Position numbers and translations under genes: made by a program. A DNA stretch of 64,000 nucleotides from Pseudomonadota bacterium (GTDB taxonomy: Bacteria; Pseudomonadota; Alphaproteobacteria; Caulobacterales; Caulobacteraceae), in NCBI GenBank assembly GCA_021808285.1, contig JAKBBV010000007.1, positions 1 to 64,000 on the forward strand, written 5' to 3'. The notes under the pieces were generated by a model. The model made no database searches. It saw only the letters and a program-made list of their open reading frames with translations, and had not been told where the DNA came from. Positions 3,088 through 46,107 of this stretch are shown here, in pieces; the first letter of the stretch is position 1; the number at the start of each line of letters is the position of its first letter.

Positions 3088-4212
3088 ATGATAGCGCGTC
3101 GGGCGGCGGAGTTATGTTCTGCGATGGCGATCGCGATGGCGGCGGCCGGGGGAGCCCTCGCGGTTCCCAAGGCGGTCTCGTCTCGGCGCGCCGCCCCGGC
3201 GCGGCTGGAGGGGGTGCCGCGCTATGCCCACATTTTCGTCATTCTGGCCGAAAACAAGAGCTATGACGAGATTATCGGCGGGGCGAACGCCCCCAATTTT
3301 TCCCGCCTCGCCAAGGCCTATGGCGACGCCACGCGCTTCTATGGAGAAGTGCATCCAAGTGAGGCCAACTACGTGGCCCTCCTGGGCGGGGACACCTTCG
3401 GCATCCACGACGACGACCCCTGGTTCTGCAAGACGGGCGCAACCGATCCGGCCTGCCTCAACGCCTCGCGCGAACATCCCTATCCAGATCACACGGTGCA
3501 TTCACCAGGGCTGAGCGATCAGCTCAACGCCGCTCACCTGACCTGGAAAGGCTATTACGAGGACCTGCCGGCGCCGGGGTCTTTGGCCTACATCGCATCG
3601 GACCCCGCGATCAGCGACGGCACCCGCTTCACCGCGCTCTACGCCGCCAAGCATTCGGGTTTCACCAATTTCGCCTCGGTGCAAGGCGATCCGAACCGGG
3701 CCCGGAGGCTCGTGGGCTTCGATGCCTTTGAGGCCGACCTGAAGGCCGGTCGACTGCCCAATTTCGCCCTGATCGTGCCCAACCAGTGCAATGAGATGCA
3801 CGGCCTGGTCGGCGCCCGCGTTCCGGCCGACTGCGAGGGCCATAACACCGCCGGCCTGATCCGTCGCGGCGACGCCGAGATCGGCAAGCTGGTGGCCGAG
3901 ATCCAGGCCACGCCGATGTGGCGCTCAAGGCAGAACGTCGCCATCGTCCTGACCTTCGATGAGGGCCTGCCGGGTGAGCGGACGGGCTGCTGCGGCGTCA
4001 CGCCGGATCAACCCTCGAACTATGGCGGCGGACACATCCCCACGGTCGTCATCACCAACCACGGCCCCCATGGCCTCGCCGACGCCACGCCCTACAACCA
4101 CTATTCGCTGCTGCGCACGATCGAGGACGCGTTCGGCATCTCCGAACATCTCGGACACGCGGCGCAAACTGACAAGGGCGTGGTCCCCATGACGGCCCTA
4201 TTCGGAGGTTAG
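3088..4212 (+). CDS. Secreted phosphoesterase (acid phosphatase / phospholipase C superfamily)
   Basis: This 374-residue protein has an N-terminal signal peptide (about residues 1-29, a hydrophobic alanine-rich stretch ending ALAVPKA). The mature part carries the hallmarks of the PF04185 phosphoesterase family: FVILAENKSYDEIIG near residue 55, a metal/nucleophile-type segment HPSEANYVALLGG, a late NVAIVLTFDEGLPG segment, and HIPTVVITNHGPHGL followed by NHYSLLRTIEDAFGI near the C-terminus. Members hydrolyse phosphomonoesters or phospholipids outside the cytoplasm. The start follows GGGAGCGAGC. The gene stands alone between tRNA-Asn and a minus-strand gene. Whether it is a phosphatase or a phospholipase is not decided by the sequence. 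Confidence 0.85.
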   Translation: MIARRAAELCSAMAIAMAAAGGALAVPKAVSSRRAAPARLEGVPRYAHIFVILAENKSYDEIIGGANAPNFSRLAKAYGDATRFYGEVHPSEANYVALLGGDTFGIHDDDPWFCKTGATDPACLNASREHPYPDHTVHSPGLSDQLNAAHLTWKGYYEDLPAPGSLAYIASDPAISDGTRFTALYAAKHSGFTNFASVQGDPNRARRLVGFDAFEADLKAGRLPNFALIVPNQCNEMHGLVGARVPADCEGHNTAGLIRRGDAEIGKLVAEIQATPMWRSRQNVAIVLTFDEGLPGERTGCCGVTPDQPSNYGGGHIPTVVITNHGPHGLADATPYNHYSLLRTIEDAFGISEHLGHAAQTDKGVVPMTALFGG

Positions 4213-4242
4213 ACCCGTTCCCGTAAGGACGGATGCGGCGGC

Positions 4243-4926
4243 TCACGCCGGCGCGAGGAGCGGTGCGCAGACGTGGTCGATGAACGGGATCTGCGAGAGC
4301 GGGACGGGCTTCGATGCGATGTGCAGCTTGCGCGCGAGCTCTTCAATCGTCGGCCGGTTGAACGCGTAGAAGCCGTTATAGCGCCGCAACCTCTGCAGAG
4401 CGCGCGCGAGCAGCATGAGGTCGCGGTCGTCCAGATGGCGGACCTGGTCGAGGCCGGCCAGATTGTCCCAGTCGTCGAGTTCGCGCTGTCTCTGGTCGTC
4501 GAGAAAGCCGATCAGGAGATAGATGTGGGAATAGGCTTGCCGCGCGCTCAGGGGCATGTGGGTGAAGACCGGATTGGCCCGGGCCTGCGACCAGGCGGCA
4601 TCCTGATAGGAGGGCAGGAACGGGCCCTGCGGCGGGGCGGCGAGTTTCAGTGGACGGCCTCGGCGCCAGCTCTCTTCAAAGCGGGTGAGTTCATCCAGAC
4701 GGGCGGAAGCGCAGGCGCTCTCGGCCGAGCGCAGCTCCATGTCGCGCACGTCCTGGGCCAGCTCCTGCGACAGGCTGGCGCGGGTCTCGGCCACCTCATG
4801 GCGCCAATGGAAGCCCTCGAGGAGTTGCTCGCCGGCGAGGGCGATGAAGATGCCGACAACGATGACGCTGATCTCGGAGAGGAACTCGATCAGGTTCCGG
4901 ACGGGCTTCGGCTTGTGAATGTGCAT
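4243..4926 (-). CDS. Conserved hypothetical single-pass membrane protein
   Basis: This is a protein of 227 residues with one clear hydrophobic segment at about residues 13-34 (ISVIVVGIFIALAGEQLLEG), followed by a mostly helical, charged soluble part. It belongs to a loosely defined group of alphaproteobacterial proteins that begin with a short N-tail, a LIEFLSEISVIVVGIFIALAGE helix and a HWR motif. The function is unknown. The frame stays open upstream, but those codons are the translated tRNA-Cys gene, so the ATG at 4926 was chosen. It lies 40 nt downstream of tRNA-Cys on the same strand. Confidence 0.75.
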   Translation of the reverse strand: MHIHKPKPVRNLIEFLSEISVIVVGIFIALAGEQLLEGFHWRHEVAETRASLSQELAQDVRDMELRSAESACASARLDELTRFEESWRRGRPLKLAAPPQGPFLPSYQDAAWSQARANPVFTHMPLSARQAYSHIYLLIGFLDDQRQRELDDWDNLAGLDQVRHLDDRDLMLLARALQRLRRYNGFYAFNRPTIEELARKLHIASKPVPLSQIPFIDHVCAPLLAPA

Positions 4927-4966
4927 GAGGCCCCCCAGGCCGGACTGAGCCTGGCCTTGCCGCCGC

Positions 4967-5040
4967 TGGAGGCCTGGGCCGGAATCGAACCGGCGTACAC
5001 GGATTTGCAGTCCGCTGCGTAACCACTCCGCCACCAGGCC
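4967..5040 (-). tRNA. tRNA-Cys (anticodon GCA)
   Basis: On the minus strand from 5040: acceptor GGCCTGG, a D arm, anticodon stem-loop GGACTGCAAATCC with anticodon GCA, T arm with GGTTCGATTCC, closing acceptor strand CCAGGCC, discriminator T and an encoded CCA at 4969-4967. Length is 71 nt plus CCA, the usual size for bacterial tRNA-Cys. Confidence 0.97.
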
Positions 5041-5221
5041 GTGCGGGGAGGGCGCTGGCTATCAGATGCCGCGGGGCGGGGCAATCATGGCGTCGGCGAG
5101 GTCCGCGACGACCGACGCAACCCAGGCCCCGCATTGCGTCCACCGCCCGCACGCGCCTATAGGCGGGGCGCGGCGGCGCACCGCCGTCTCATTTCATGCC
5201 CAACGCCTCAGGAACCGCGCC

Positions 5222-43096: not shown

Positions 43097-43576
43097 ATGT
43101 CCGTCGCCTTCACCCGGGAAGAGGATCTCGAGGCCCGCGCCGCGGACCTGCCCGACCGCCCCATCTCGGCCCACCCCAACTTGGTTACGGCAGAGGGCCT
43201 CGCCGCACTGGATGTGGCGCTCGCCGAGGCTCAACGCGCCTATGTCGCCGCCAAAGCGGCGGGGGATGTGAGCGTCGATCGCACCGCGCTCGCCCGCGCC
43301 ACGCGCGAGTTGAGATACTGGTCCGCGCGCCGGGGAAGCGCCCAACTGACCCAGCCGGCGCTGCAGCCCGACTTCGTCCAGTTCGGCGCCGTGGTGCGGA
43401 TCGCCCGTGAGGATGGGCGCGTGCAGACCTTCCGCATCGTCGGCGAGGACGAGGCCGACCCCGCCGCCGGACTCATTTCCTACGTTTCACCCCTGGCCCA
43501 GGCGCTGCTCGGTAAAGCCATCGGCGAGACGGTTACAGTCGCCGGCAGCGAAGCTGAGGTGCTGGACGTGGCCTAG
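43097..43576 (+). CDS. GreA/GreB-family RNA polymerase-binding protein, variant tip
   Basis: This 159-residue protein has the two-domain Gre layout. An N-terminal coiled coil (residues about 30-75, LAEAQRAYVAAKAAGDVSVD) is followed by the FKBP-like C-terminal domain (VQFGAVVRIAREDGRVQTF, YVSPLAQALLGKAIGETV). Gre factors enter the RNA polymerase secondary channel and stimulate cleavage of backtracked RNA using two acidic residues at the coiled-coil tip (GD-x-SEN). Here the tip reads GDVSVD, so the second acid appears lost and cleavage activity is doubtful. Its stop TAG (43574-43576) lies in the CTAG target of IS element 2. Confidence 0.82.
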   Translation: MSVAFTREEDLEARAADLPDRPISAHPNLVTAEGLAALDVALAEAQRAYVAAKAAGDVSVDRTALARATRELRYWSARRGSAQLTQPALQPDFVQFGAVVRIAREDGRVQTFRIVGEDEADPAAGLISYVSPLAQALLGKAIGETVTVAGSEAEVLDVA

Positions 43577-43592
43577 CAGGCTGTTGAAATTG

Positions 43593-43937
43593 TCATTCGT
43601 GGAGGGCGACGAAGCCTGAATCGTCGCTGTTGTGAATGAAGATGTGCCCAACGAGGCGGCCGGCGGTTCCGATGAAGGCCCATCCGCGGCCGCAGGCCTG
43701 GTCGGTGTCATTGTGGCCCTCCCAGGAGAACTCTGCACACGCCGCGCCGTCGCGCGCGCCGTATCTGACATCGAGCCATGCCTTGACCGCGCCGAAGGCG
43801 AAGCTGCCGTCGTGGTCGCCTTCGAAGATGATGTGCGCCGGTTCGATCAGGTCGATGTAGTCATTGTCCCACTGATCCATCTCCTCGATCCGCCAGCGGC
43901 CCCTGAACGCCCTGGCCAGGGCCGAAGCGCGTCTCAC
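43593..43937 (-). CDS. IS-borne passenger protein (114 aa)
   Basis: This is a 114-residue protein starting at a GTG (43937) that overlaps the transposase stop as GTGA, so translation is probably coupled. It shows RGRWRIEEMDQWDNDYIDLI, then HIIFEGDHDGSFAFGAVKAW, CAEFSWEGHNDTDQACGRGW and the ending GHIFIHNSDDSGFVAL. I recognise this as a small protein type (RGRWRI-x-EM-x-x-WD-x-D-x-IDL) found scattered in bacterial genomes, often near mobile elements. It looks like a compact beta-sheet protein of unknown function. It has no DNA-binding motif that I can see. Confidence 0.78.
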   Translation of the reverse strand: MRRASALARAFRGRWRIEEMDQWDNDYIDLIEPAHIIFEGDHDGSFAFGAVKAWLDVRYGARDGAACAEFSWEGHNDTDQACGRGWAFIGTAGRLVGHIFIHNSDDSGFVALHE

Positions 43938-45034
43938 GCCGTTGCTCCGGCGAGGAGCTTGGGCAGGCGGACGAGGTTGTAGGCCGCCGCGGCGAAGGTG
44001 AAGGCCCATCCCACCCGGTCGCGACCTCGCAAGCGGGTCTTGCGCATGCCGGCCACGCTCTTGATCCATCCGAAACCCTCCTCGATGCGCTTGCGGAGGA
44101 TCTGGCTGGCGGCGTAGCCGGCGTGGCGCGTGGTTCGCCCGTCGATGGCCGAGCGCCGGCCATTGGTGTTCTGGGCGACGTGCGGACGCACGTTCATCGA
44201 GCGCAGTTCATTGACGAAGTCCTCGGCGTCATAGGCCTTGTCGGCCCCCAGCGAGATCGCCCGCGGCCGATCGGCCCAGGCCTCGATCATCGACAGGGCC
44301 GCGTTCCGCTCGCCATGGCCGTCGGCCAAGGTCAGGCGGGCGTCGACGATCAGGCAGGACCGGTTCTCCATCAGGGTGTGACCCATGAAGCAGAGCTTGG
44401 CCTCCATGCCGGAGCCCTTCCGGTAGAGCCTGGCCTCGGGATCGGTGGTGCTCTGGTGCGTCTCGTTGGACCGCTTCTGGCCCTTGAAGTCGACCTCGGC
44501 GTTGCGCCCGCCGCCGCCTGGCGGCGGTTCATTCCCATCGCCCGGCGCCTTGGGCTTGAAGCTCTTCATCGACGCCCAGGCCTCGATCAGCGTGCCATCG
44601 ACACTGAAGTGGTCGGTCGACAACAACCGCTTCACCTTCGGCTGGGCCAGCACCGCCGAGAGGAACCGCGCGGCGATCTCACCCTCCAGCAGCCGGTCGC
44701 GGTTCTTCGAGAACGTCGAGTGGTCCCAGGTCGCATCGTCCACGCCCAGGCCCACGAACCAGCGGAACAACAGATCGAACTCCAGACGCTCCATCAACTG
44801 CCGCTCCGAGCGGATCGAATAGAACGCCTGCAGCAGCATCGCCCGCAACAGCATCTCCGGCGCGATCGAGGGCCGGCCCATCCCCGAGTAGAGACCCGCA
44901 AAGTCCTCGCTCAGCGACGCCAGCGCCGCGTCCACCAGGCGCCGGATGGCCCTCAGCGGATGGTTCGGCCGAACCCGCGCCTCGATGTCCACATACGAAA
45001 ACAACGACCCCGAACGCTGATCCGAACCCCGCAT
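43934..45034 (-). CDS. IS5-family transposase (element 2)
   Basis: This is a single-frame transposase of 366 residues. The N-terminal domain starts LFSYVDIEARVRPNHPLRAI with SIRSERQLMERLEFDLLFRW. The catalytic residues fit the DDE pattern: Asp in FSVDGTLIEAW, Asp in LGADKAYDAEDFV, Glu in RKRIEEGFGWIKSVAGMRK. A Pro/Gly-rich insertion lies between the first and second Asp. No frameshift or stop is seen, so it is probably active. Confidence 0.92.
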   Translation of the reverse strand: MRGSDQRSGSLFSYVDIEARVRPNHPLRAIRRLVDAALASLSEDFAGLYSGMGRPSIAPEMLLRAMLLQAFYSIRSERQLMERLEFDLLFRWFVGLGVDDATWDHSTFSKNRDRLLEGEIAARFLSAVLAQPKVKRLLSTDHFSVDGTLIEAWASMKSFKPKAPGDGNEPPPGGGGRNAEVDFKGQKRSNETHQSTTDPEARLYRKGSGMEAKLCFMGHTLMENRSCLIVDARLTLADGHGERNAALSMIEAWADRPRAISLGADKAYDAEDFVNELRSMNVRPHVAQNTNGRRSAIDGRTTRHAGYAASQILRKRIEEGFGWIKSVAGMRKTRLRGRDRVGWAFTFAAAAYNLVRLPKLLAGATA

Positions 45035-45110
45035 CCGCCTCTCCCAACCACCTCAGGCAGGAGTGAATCATGCCGAATCCGGCCGCGCCACCGACTTCTT
45101 CAACAGCCTG

Positions 45111-45228
45111 CTAGAGCGCCGTCCGACCAGATGGAAACTGTCTGGGCGGTCAGACGGCGCGTAAACGACTGAATCTAGAGCGAATGGCGATGTCCTCAGG
45201 GATTCCCTCAGCTCGAAATTCGCTCTAG
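45111..45228. repeat. 118-bp palindromic dispersed repeat, copy B, flanked by IS elements
   Basis: This is the second copy of the repeat at 5791-5908. Differences are confined to one base near the left end, one in the spacer and about three in the loop of the second hairpin. The two inverted repeats are kept. Its left CTAG is the target duplication of IS element 2 and its right CTAG (45225-45228) is the insertion site of IS element 3, so it is hemmed in on both sides by mobile elements. Confidence 0.85.
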
Positions 45229-45237
45229 GCTCCAGAC

Positions 45238-45992
45238 TCATAACCACCAAATGACCATGGCGGCGATGAGGACGGCGGCGTCGTAAGCGACGGCGAGTTT
45301 GTCGTATCGTGTGGCGACGCGCCTGAAGTCTTTGAGACGGCTGAACATTCGCTCGATGAGGTTTCGGCGACGATAGAGCTGACGATCGAACGGGTAGGGG
45401 TTTTTGCGCGTGCGATTGTTGGGAACGATGGCGAGGGTTCCGCGGTTGGCGAGAAAGGCTCGGAAGCCGTGGCTGTCGTAGGCGCAGTCGGCGAGGCACA
45501 GCTTGGCGGGCGGCAGTGGGCCGATGAGTTCGGTGGCGGCGCGCAGGTCGCCGAGCTGGCCGGGCGTGATCACGAAGGCGATTGGGCGGCCCTGACCGTC
45601 AACCACGGCATGGACCTTGGTCGTCCGCCCGCCGCGGGAGCGGCCTATGGCTTGGGCAAGAGCCCCCCTTTTCCGCCGGCGGCGCAGCGGTGGGCCTTGG
45701 CATGGGTCGAGTCGAGCATGATCTCGGCCGGCGGGCCGCCAGAGGCCGCCAGCGTCTCGAAGGCCTCGCGCCAGACGCCCTTCTTCGCCCAGCGAACGAA
45801 CCGGTTGTAGAGCGTCTTGCGCGGGCCATAGACCGCCGGCGCATCCACCCAGCGCGATCCGCTCATAAGCACATGCACAATGCCGCTGATCACCCGCCGG
45901 TCGTCCACCCGGGCCACCCCCCGCGTATCCTTCGGCAGCAAAGGCGCCAGCCGCTCGAACTGAGCCTCGCTCAGCCAGAAAACATCAGCCAT
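45238..45992 (-). CDS. IS5-family transposase, two frames (element 3)
   Basis: orfA starts at 45992 (MADVFWLSEAQFERLAPLLP) and ends at 45645 after 115 residues. orfB in the -1 frame ends at 45238 and holds the rest of the DDE domain (LCLADCAYDSHGFRAFL, then RRRNLIERMFSRLKDFR with the catalytic Glu). A -1 shift at the A4G6 run joins them into 251 residues. The first Asp is in EIMLDSTHAKAHR at the end of orfA. Both halves look intact. Confidence 0.86.
45663..45672 (-). other. Putative -1 frameshift run in element 3
   Basis: On the minus strand the orfA frame reads GGA AAA GGG GGG CTC, an A4G6 homopolymer run directly before orfA ends. A -1 slip here gives the orfB frame with the catalytic residues. 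It differs from the A AAA AAG site of element 1. Confidence 0.65.
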
Positions 45993-46107
45993 CCAAACCC
46001 TCCCATCTGGAGAGCTTGAATCACTGTTCGGGCCAAACAGGAATCCCGTTTATGGGTCCTGAGCCTAGGACGCCCGCGCGAGGTCAACCTAAGCACATAT
46101 GCGGGGT

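Follow-up and report, generated by a model that had tools for sequence, protein, structure and literature searches.

The window analysed here, a stretch of 64,000 nucleotides from a contig of the Caulobacteraceae (JAKBBV010000007.1), contains an IS5-type element at coordinates 43577–45110. The element is 1,534 bp long and has two genes between its ends, both on the minus strand: a transposase gene and a small passenger gene that follows it. The features of the element are:

43573–43576, no strand: target-site duplication CTAG, right side, paired with the left CTAG in the inverted-repeat listing
43577–43588, no strand: right terminal inverted repeat, 12 bp and perfect (inverted-repeat pair I8)
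43593–43937, minus strand: passenger gene, 114 codons with a GTG start, called as an ORF; its product is predicted from the model to be an eight-stranded soluble beta-barrel
43934–43937, minus strand: GTGA, in which the transposase stop overlaps the passenger start, read from the sequence; the geometry is conserved across loci
43945–43948, minus strand: GGAG, a Shine-Dalgarno-like sequence 7 nt 5′ of the GTG and within the final transposase codons, read from the sequence
43934–45034, minus strand: IS5 family transposase, 366 aa (NF033581, PF05598/PF01609)
45099–45110, no strand: left terminal inverted repeat, 12 bp and perfect (inverted-repeat pair I8)
45111–45114, no strand: target-site duplication CTAG, left side, from the sequence and the repeat listing

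The original prediction described a 114-residue ORF inside inverted repeats with a GTG start that shares bases with the transposase stop, and this is the arrangement present: the 12-bp repeats are perfect, and the last two bases of the passenger GTG open the transposase stop TGA (43936–43934) within the GTGA. The inverted-repeat search reports each repeat and its duplication jointly, as one 16-nt pair that is 100% complementary. Among the window proteins the transposase scores 267.9 bits against NCBIfam NF033581 (IS5 family transposase), for which the cut-off is 140, and it also matches Pfam PF05598 and PF01609. The passenger occupies the gap from the transposase stop to the right inverted repeat, which is the last quarter of the element. 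A 4-bp YTAR target duplication is the hallmark of one IS5 subgroup, and the window element has it in the form CTAG.

The element is inserted at the stop codon of greA (43097–43576, plus strand; NCBIfam NF004973), whose own stop TAG lies within the CTAG duplication, such that the target duplication preserves it. A second, smaller IS5-like element (45225–46068) directly adjoins the first; its ends are 19 nt long and 84% complementary (45225–45243 and 46050–46068), its DDE half corresponds to 45238–45606 (NF033580), and the remainder is seemingly in another frame. An imperfect 26-nt inverted repeat (73%; 45111–45136 and 45203–45228) reaches from the insertion CTAG to beside this second IS, and the pair is perhaps a small non-autonomous element.

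Loci homologous to the passenger were collected from GTDB genomes, and the best 80 of 182 relatives were classified by context. IS-linked loci account for 67 of these 80, 54 having a transposase just upstream and 13 only the right inverted repeat; two further loci are in phages and 11 are actinobacterial. A transposase was scored as upstream where a tblastn piece ends within 400 nt of the passenger, and some of these pieces are fragments. In a wider set a transposase is upstream in 83 of 128 loci, a count in which loci fetched twice from one genome are entered separately. Among 75 distinct loci with a transposase upstream, the start and stop codons overlap by 1 or 4 nt in 63, as the 1-nt TGATG in 41 and the 4-nt NTGA in 22, and this supports the conserved passenger, placed for co-translation with the transposase, that had been proposed from the window alone. 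The overlap is kept in 58 of the 64 distinct loci in which the passenger is intact. The pattern that had been named as arguing against this proposal, homologues that are mostly free-standing and an overlap that is not conserved, is thus not the one found. Twelve of the 75 loci have no true overlap: a single base separates the two genes in two of them (L040, L041), the barrel is intact but the junction lacks an in-frame start in four (L056, L077, L084, L089), and the passenger is damaged in six (L019, L022, L036, L039, L091, L119). We considered L119 as a 64th overlap and rejected it, as the start concerned is an accidental one inside the damaged passenger.

The distal end of the passenger is also largely fixed in position: where a right repeat is recognised, the stop mostly lies 4 nt ahead of it. 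In a second type (e.g. L013–L015 and L029–L032) the passenger frame crosses the right repeat and stops inside the target duplication (offset −16), because YTAR supplies a TAA or TAG in that frame. Identical 4-nt flanks are present at 35 of the 48 loci with both ends, a count that is not deduplicated, and all of them are CTAG, CTAA or TTAG. GGAG precedes the passenger start in 11 of the 12 relatives inspected of the window passenger type (type A, below). In a Methylorubrum plasmid (L026, 2825–2998) a 174-bp stretch at the transposase 3′ end is labelled by PLSDB as the resistance gene rmtH; the label may be an annotation artefact or reflect a shared IS fragment.

A search that started from the transposase returned 22 places, of which 12 have a passenger (nine intact; damaged in L136, L142 and L146), seven lack one (L129, L130, L134, L139, L140, L143 and L144, the right repeat being unrecognised in the last two), and three could not be sorted (L137, L145, L147). 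The seven matches without a passenger indicate that the element can live without it. In four of these seven the transposase still ends in ATGA, which makes the overlap motif in part a feature of how the transposase gene terminates, and as a TGA preceded by A, G or T always yields NTGA, the overlap alone is weak evidence; some of it may have this origin and not be the product of selection for coupling. What goes beyond chance is the presence of the family N-terminus at the same 1- or 4-nt overlap, the position of the stop near the right repeat, and purifying selection on the frame. Judged by these regularities, the passenger is a real part of the IS5 element.

Selection was estimated from 30 hand-picked loci, reduced to 24 type-A elements with both genes intact, and those pairs were used in which dS is 0.1–1.2 in both genes (174 of 276). 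Over these pairs, which are not independent of one another, the median dN/dS is 0.10 for the passenger and 0.12 for the transposase. The passenger value is below 0.5 in all 174 and exceeds that of the transposase in 69. By these estimates the passenger is under purifying selection, much like the transposase. Not every copy is complete: of the 158 loci with a profile match, 41 lack an intact passenger, in some cases solely because the contig runs out.

A tree of 95 distinct passenger sequences (109 columns, with many forks open) places the IS5-borne passengers at several positions, so that they are polyphyletic; we refer to these as types A, B and C. The window passenger is of type A, and type C includes that of a second element in the same genome. 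When the type labels are set by hand on a transposase tree (46 distinct of 61 full-length transposases; short search, SH-aLRT only), the passenger types are mixed over the tree, and type A nonetheless clusters, with six changes compared to a shuffled mean of 14.5, which suggests that exchange is occasional.

The exchange is clearest in a pair of elements, L029 (type B) and L050 (type A), in which the transposases are identical at 344 of 362 residues (95%) and the passengers at only 45 of 97 (46%). In 60-nt blocks their DNA is mostly 92–97% identical within the transposase gene, with a few blocks at 73–78%, and drops to 50–60% from the stop onward. L126 has the same drop in identity at the transposase stop. 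Between L029 and L030, both of type B, DNA identity is high throughout both genes. The window element and its own genome's second copy share 83% of transposase residues and 40% of passenger residues, and at the DNA level they go from mostly 72–88% in the transposase gene to 45–60% in the passenger; the L029 passenger is 38% identical to that of the window. As read from these alignments, closely related transposases carry different passengers, and the breakpoint falls at the transposase stop.

Passenger copies are also found among phage genes, in IMG/VR contigs and in two GTDB MAGs; the INPHARED phage collection contains no match. Two types of phage locus are represented. At the tail locus the passenger is antisense between two genes whose products match Tail_P2_I (by a scan of L127) and phrog_17470 (by a scan of L122), with both flanks seen in L122, L123, L125 and L127, and one or a partial flank in L083 and L128; in L120 there is a Baseplate_J gene on the open side of the passenger. 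At the portal locus it lies between the terminase large subunit and portal genes (L124) or before the portal gene (L074). The tail junction is visible in 38 of 40 contigs that share this tail gene, and in 32 of them the two tail genes abut or are no more than 23 nt apart. Four of the 38 have the passenger at the junction (with a gap of 522–531 nt, and once 1,607 nt), and two have a different ORF, which is an Endonuclease_7 by Pfam in L204 and appears similar by eye in L192. Four of the junction loci, L172, L185, L186 and L193, share contigs with L127, L122, L123 and L125, respectively. The junction, with either the passenger or another ORF in it, has the form of a cargo slot between tail genes, and in L172 an extra ORF resembling an SDR oxidoreductase is located beside the passenger in the same slot.

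On the passenger tree the phage copies form two clades (six and two sequences; support 100/95 and 100/97) nested within the IS5 type-A clade. The DNA immediately 5′ of them resembles a decayed IS5 transposase 3′ end, with GGAG retained in all eight and TGATG in seven, and in 30-nt blocks the transposase-like stretch extends over 90 nt upstream of the passenger at tail loci and over 60 nt at portal loci. The match of the upstream 90 nt to the transposase 3′ end gives z = 7.0 to 14.0 against shuffles in all eight phage copies, compared to z = −1.1 to 2.1 in the free-standing copies (11 actinobacterial, with L110 absent, and two cyanobacterial), in a test in which four of eight non-type-A IS5 positive controls (L002, L009, L029, L030) scored as background, we think because their N-termini are of another length and the anchor is off. 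The passenger frame is open in all eight phage copies, each of 342 nt, and dN/dS is 0.09–0.28 (15 tail-locus pairs and one portal-locus pair). With the phage clades nested, a decayed transposase relic upstream, and the frame open and constrained, it appears that the passenger moved out of the IS on two or more occasions and was retained in phages without the transposase. A sigma-70 and terminator scan found no sigma-70-like promoter near one phage copy or in the window element, and other promoter types escape such a scan.

It had been asked whether the family always sits beside IS5 transposases, and this it does not. The actinobacterial homologues are free-standing, and in eight of 12 of these copies the next gene, which overlaps the homologue by 4 nt and is broken in some, encodes a conserved protein of ~386 aa with the motif YQYYEF. 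This protein has no Pfam match in L109 or L028; the two-gene unit is present at L109 4342–5502 and L028 3833–5005, and in L103, L110 and L113. In the actinobacterial L107 the homologue instead overlaps a DUF6880 gene (3868–5205), the product of which has a partial match to PDC-S62, a candidate-defence model in PADLOC (E 5.6e-7, residues 138–283); the other partner proteins that were scanned gave nothing or weak matches. Two copies on cyanobacterial plasmids have no adjoining transposase, and 21 nt beyond the Anabaena plasmid homologue (L034, 3337–3735) there is a gene annotated as a site-specific integrase.

A further context is found in one genome, G584, where three copies (L150, L162, L167) lie 44 nt behind an unrelated transposase gene of the rve type (rve_3 by Pfam in L150). 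In two of the three the transposase gene is interrupted by an apparent group II intron with a reverse transcriptase. DNA shared among the copies stops just past the passenger stop, apart from one further shared block of 200 nt, and inspection by eye revealed no inverted repeats that would bound a transposon unit. Any passenger match is present in two of 48 genomes of the order to which G584 belongs. That a second type of element carries the passenger through an independent capture is only suggested, by this single genome.

Searches with the passenger against Pfam, NCBIfam, PHROGs and PADLOC yielded no convincing family match. One family member matches the BREX protein PglX in PADLOC (E 0.017), and we rejected this identity, as it involves one of ten members and a 32-residue stretch scoring 13.1 bits where the cut-off is 400. 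Sequence searches of the PDB gave no significant match, the best E values being 0.27 and 0.019, the second of which does not come from any one passing stretch. A description of the family was not found in the openly accessible papers searched.

The structure predicted from 33 sequences (pLDDT 92.6, pTM 0.85, compared to 85.9 and 0.78 for an earlier model from eight sequences) consists of an N-terminal helix and eight strands, with all 114 residues within the barrel except for the helix at 2–11 and a short helix at 25–28. In VIA-align comparisons it matches a designed barrel at Z 12.0 and the Cap15 cyclic-dinucleotide receptor 7n34 at Z 11.9 (rmsd 2.3, 97 residues aligned), Cap15 being the top natural structure, with a lead of 1.6 Z over the best natural chain from any other protein; avidins, considered together with calycins as eight-stranded barrels of possible shared descent, score Z 10.0 and below. 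Foldseek returned no match at E ≤ 0.001 in the PDB or in viral models. As the designed barrel scores as well as Cap15, the similarity may reflect only a shared compact barrel, and the matches to CRABP, NanoLuc, avidin and designed barrels are mainly a sign that the fold is a common one. Residues G13, W15, I17, F48, F70, G74, G83 and G85 are invariant in alignment A4, and those that are nearly so include D79 and H102. The predicted barrel fits a small ligand-binding type.

We consider it probable, from the distribution and divergence of the genes, that the passenger is exchangeable cargo of an IS5 subgroup and has a function independent of the transposase. A gene that is swapped between elements and has apparently been taken up twice by phages is probably useful beyond helping the element to jump. 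This bears on the roles first proposed, among which regulation of transposition is now disfavoured as the main one by the exchange and by retention in phages, and the gene may benefit the element, a phage carrier or the host. A regulator produced in constant proportion to the transposase (an inhibitor, an activator or a cis-preference factor) would account for the conserved overlap, for a gene that sits inside the element right up to the inverted repeat, and for selection that is alike on the two genes. However, a protein needing to fit its own transposase is not expected to be swapped in such a way that 46%-identical passengers ride with 95%-identical transposases, nor does a regulator sit well with constraint in phages that have only a transposase relic, with the free-standing homologues of Actinobacteria and Cyanobacteria, or with the absence of the passenger in 7 of 22 transposase-driven matches. 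Exchange would be compatible with all types acting on the same conserved feature of the transposase; overall, we regard a regulator as unlikely. The same absences, together with the 41 of 158 profile-match loci where the passenger is not intact (some only through contig ends), could be taken to suggest a neutral hitchhiker, a chromosomal gene trapped once between transposase and inverted repeat, yet dN/dS well below 1 in every usable pair disfavours this, and the constrained copies in phages, the exchange between elements and the polyphyly of the IS5 passengers leave it highly improbable.

The remaining readings differ in what the cargo does. The carriers, IS elements and two kinds of phage locus, are those for which a defence or superinfection-exclusion gene would be selectable, the barrel sensing or binding a phage-derived or host signal, and the L107 homologue overlaps a DUF6880 gene with the partial PDC-S62 match. 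Against this, PADLOC has no convincing match for the passenger family (the one PglX hit, at E 0.017, aside), the other partner proteins scanned gave weak matches or none, and the 114 residues revealed no effector or toxin domain. A defence function is a minority possibility. A soluble barrel might alternatively act as a sponge that sequesters the nucleotide signals of CBASS-like systems: the Cap15 receptor barrel 7n34 is the best natural solved structure by VIA-align, and Cap15-type effectors, as described in PMC12657218, are a barrel plus two transmembrane passes, of which the passenger would be approximately the barrel alone. A de novo designed barrel matches equally well, though (Z 12.0), Foldseek has no match at E ≤ 0.001, and the free-standing actinobacterial homologues seem a poor fit, and we find counter-defence of this kind quite unlikely. 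The boldest version, a portable counter-defence (or defence) gene on a 1.5-kb IS that has as its sole cargo a soluble, Cap15-like ligand-binding barrel intercepting a nucleotide-type immune signal, its versions swapped as host systems change and twice captured by temperate phages, is a long shot.

Returning to exchangeable cargo as the preferred reading, the passenger would be translated from the transposase mRNA, either by termination–reinitiation or by way of the GGAG in the last transposase codons. The product, predicted to be a soluble eight-stranded beta-barrel of a shape frequent among small-ligand binders, would presumably act on the host cell or on other elements and not on the cognate transposase, such that any carrier could gain from it. 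Most likely the protein would bind a small molecule and thereby help the element or lysogen that carries it, and the effect could be defence, counter-defence or something else.

Insertion sequences are usually viewed as a transposase and its ends, and the IS5 subgroup here has in addition a cargo slot with an exchangeable and constrained gene. Whether minimal IS elements earn their keep by bringing a useful gene can thereby be put to the test, and a small, well-predicted protein common to IS5 elements, phages and free-standing loci is on offer for study.

Several known systems resemble parts of this arrangement. The Cap15 and OptE S-2TM-beta effectors, in which a barrel is fused to two transmembrane passes (PMC12657218), have a similar compact eight-stranded barrel by structure comparison of the predicted model (Z 11.9), but the 114-residue passenger has no room for transmembrane helices, and no sequence similarity between the two was found in the libraries searched. 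The transposition modules of Tn3 elements are described, in PMC7157771, as carrying embedded toxin–antitoxin pairs from several independent acquisitions, and are alike in having accessory genes within the transposition module. The IS5 passenger, in contrast, stands alone within the IS: one gene lies between the transposase stop and the inverted repeat, which is not a toxin–antitoxin module, and no similarity of the passenger to toxins or antitoxins was found. Phage morons are independent cargo genes between phage structural genes, and the antisense passenger between two tail genes, which are ≤23 nt apart in 32 of 38 related contigs, is comparable, although it appears to be derived from an IS and still has a relic of the transposase 3′ end.

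Most insertion sequences encode a transposase only. The window element shares with the YTAR subgroup of the IS5 family its transposase family, terminal inverted repeats, and CTAG, CTAA or TTAG duplications, and differs in having a second conserved gene in a fixed slot. Transporter ISs are IS copies with passenger genes unrelated to transposition (PMC3129680), and have in common with the element here IS ends, a transposase, and an apparently unrelated passenger between the ends; that the passenger has no part in transposition is favoured by the phage copies without a transposase and by the cassette exchange. Relative to that description, what sets the present case apart is that the cargo is one small family, which overlaps the transposase stop, is exchanged between elements, and is also phage-borne or free-standing. 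The element probably belongs with the transporter ISs, as a minimal version of them in which the cargo overlaps the transposase gene, is swapped, and has apparently been donated to phages.
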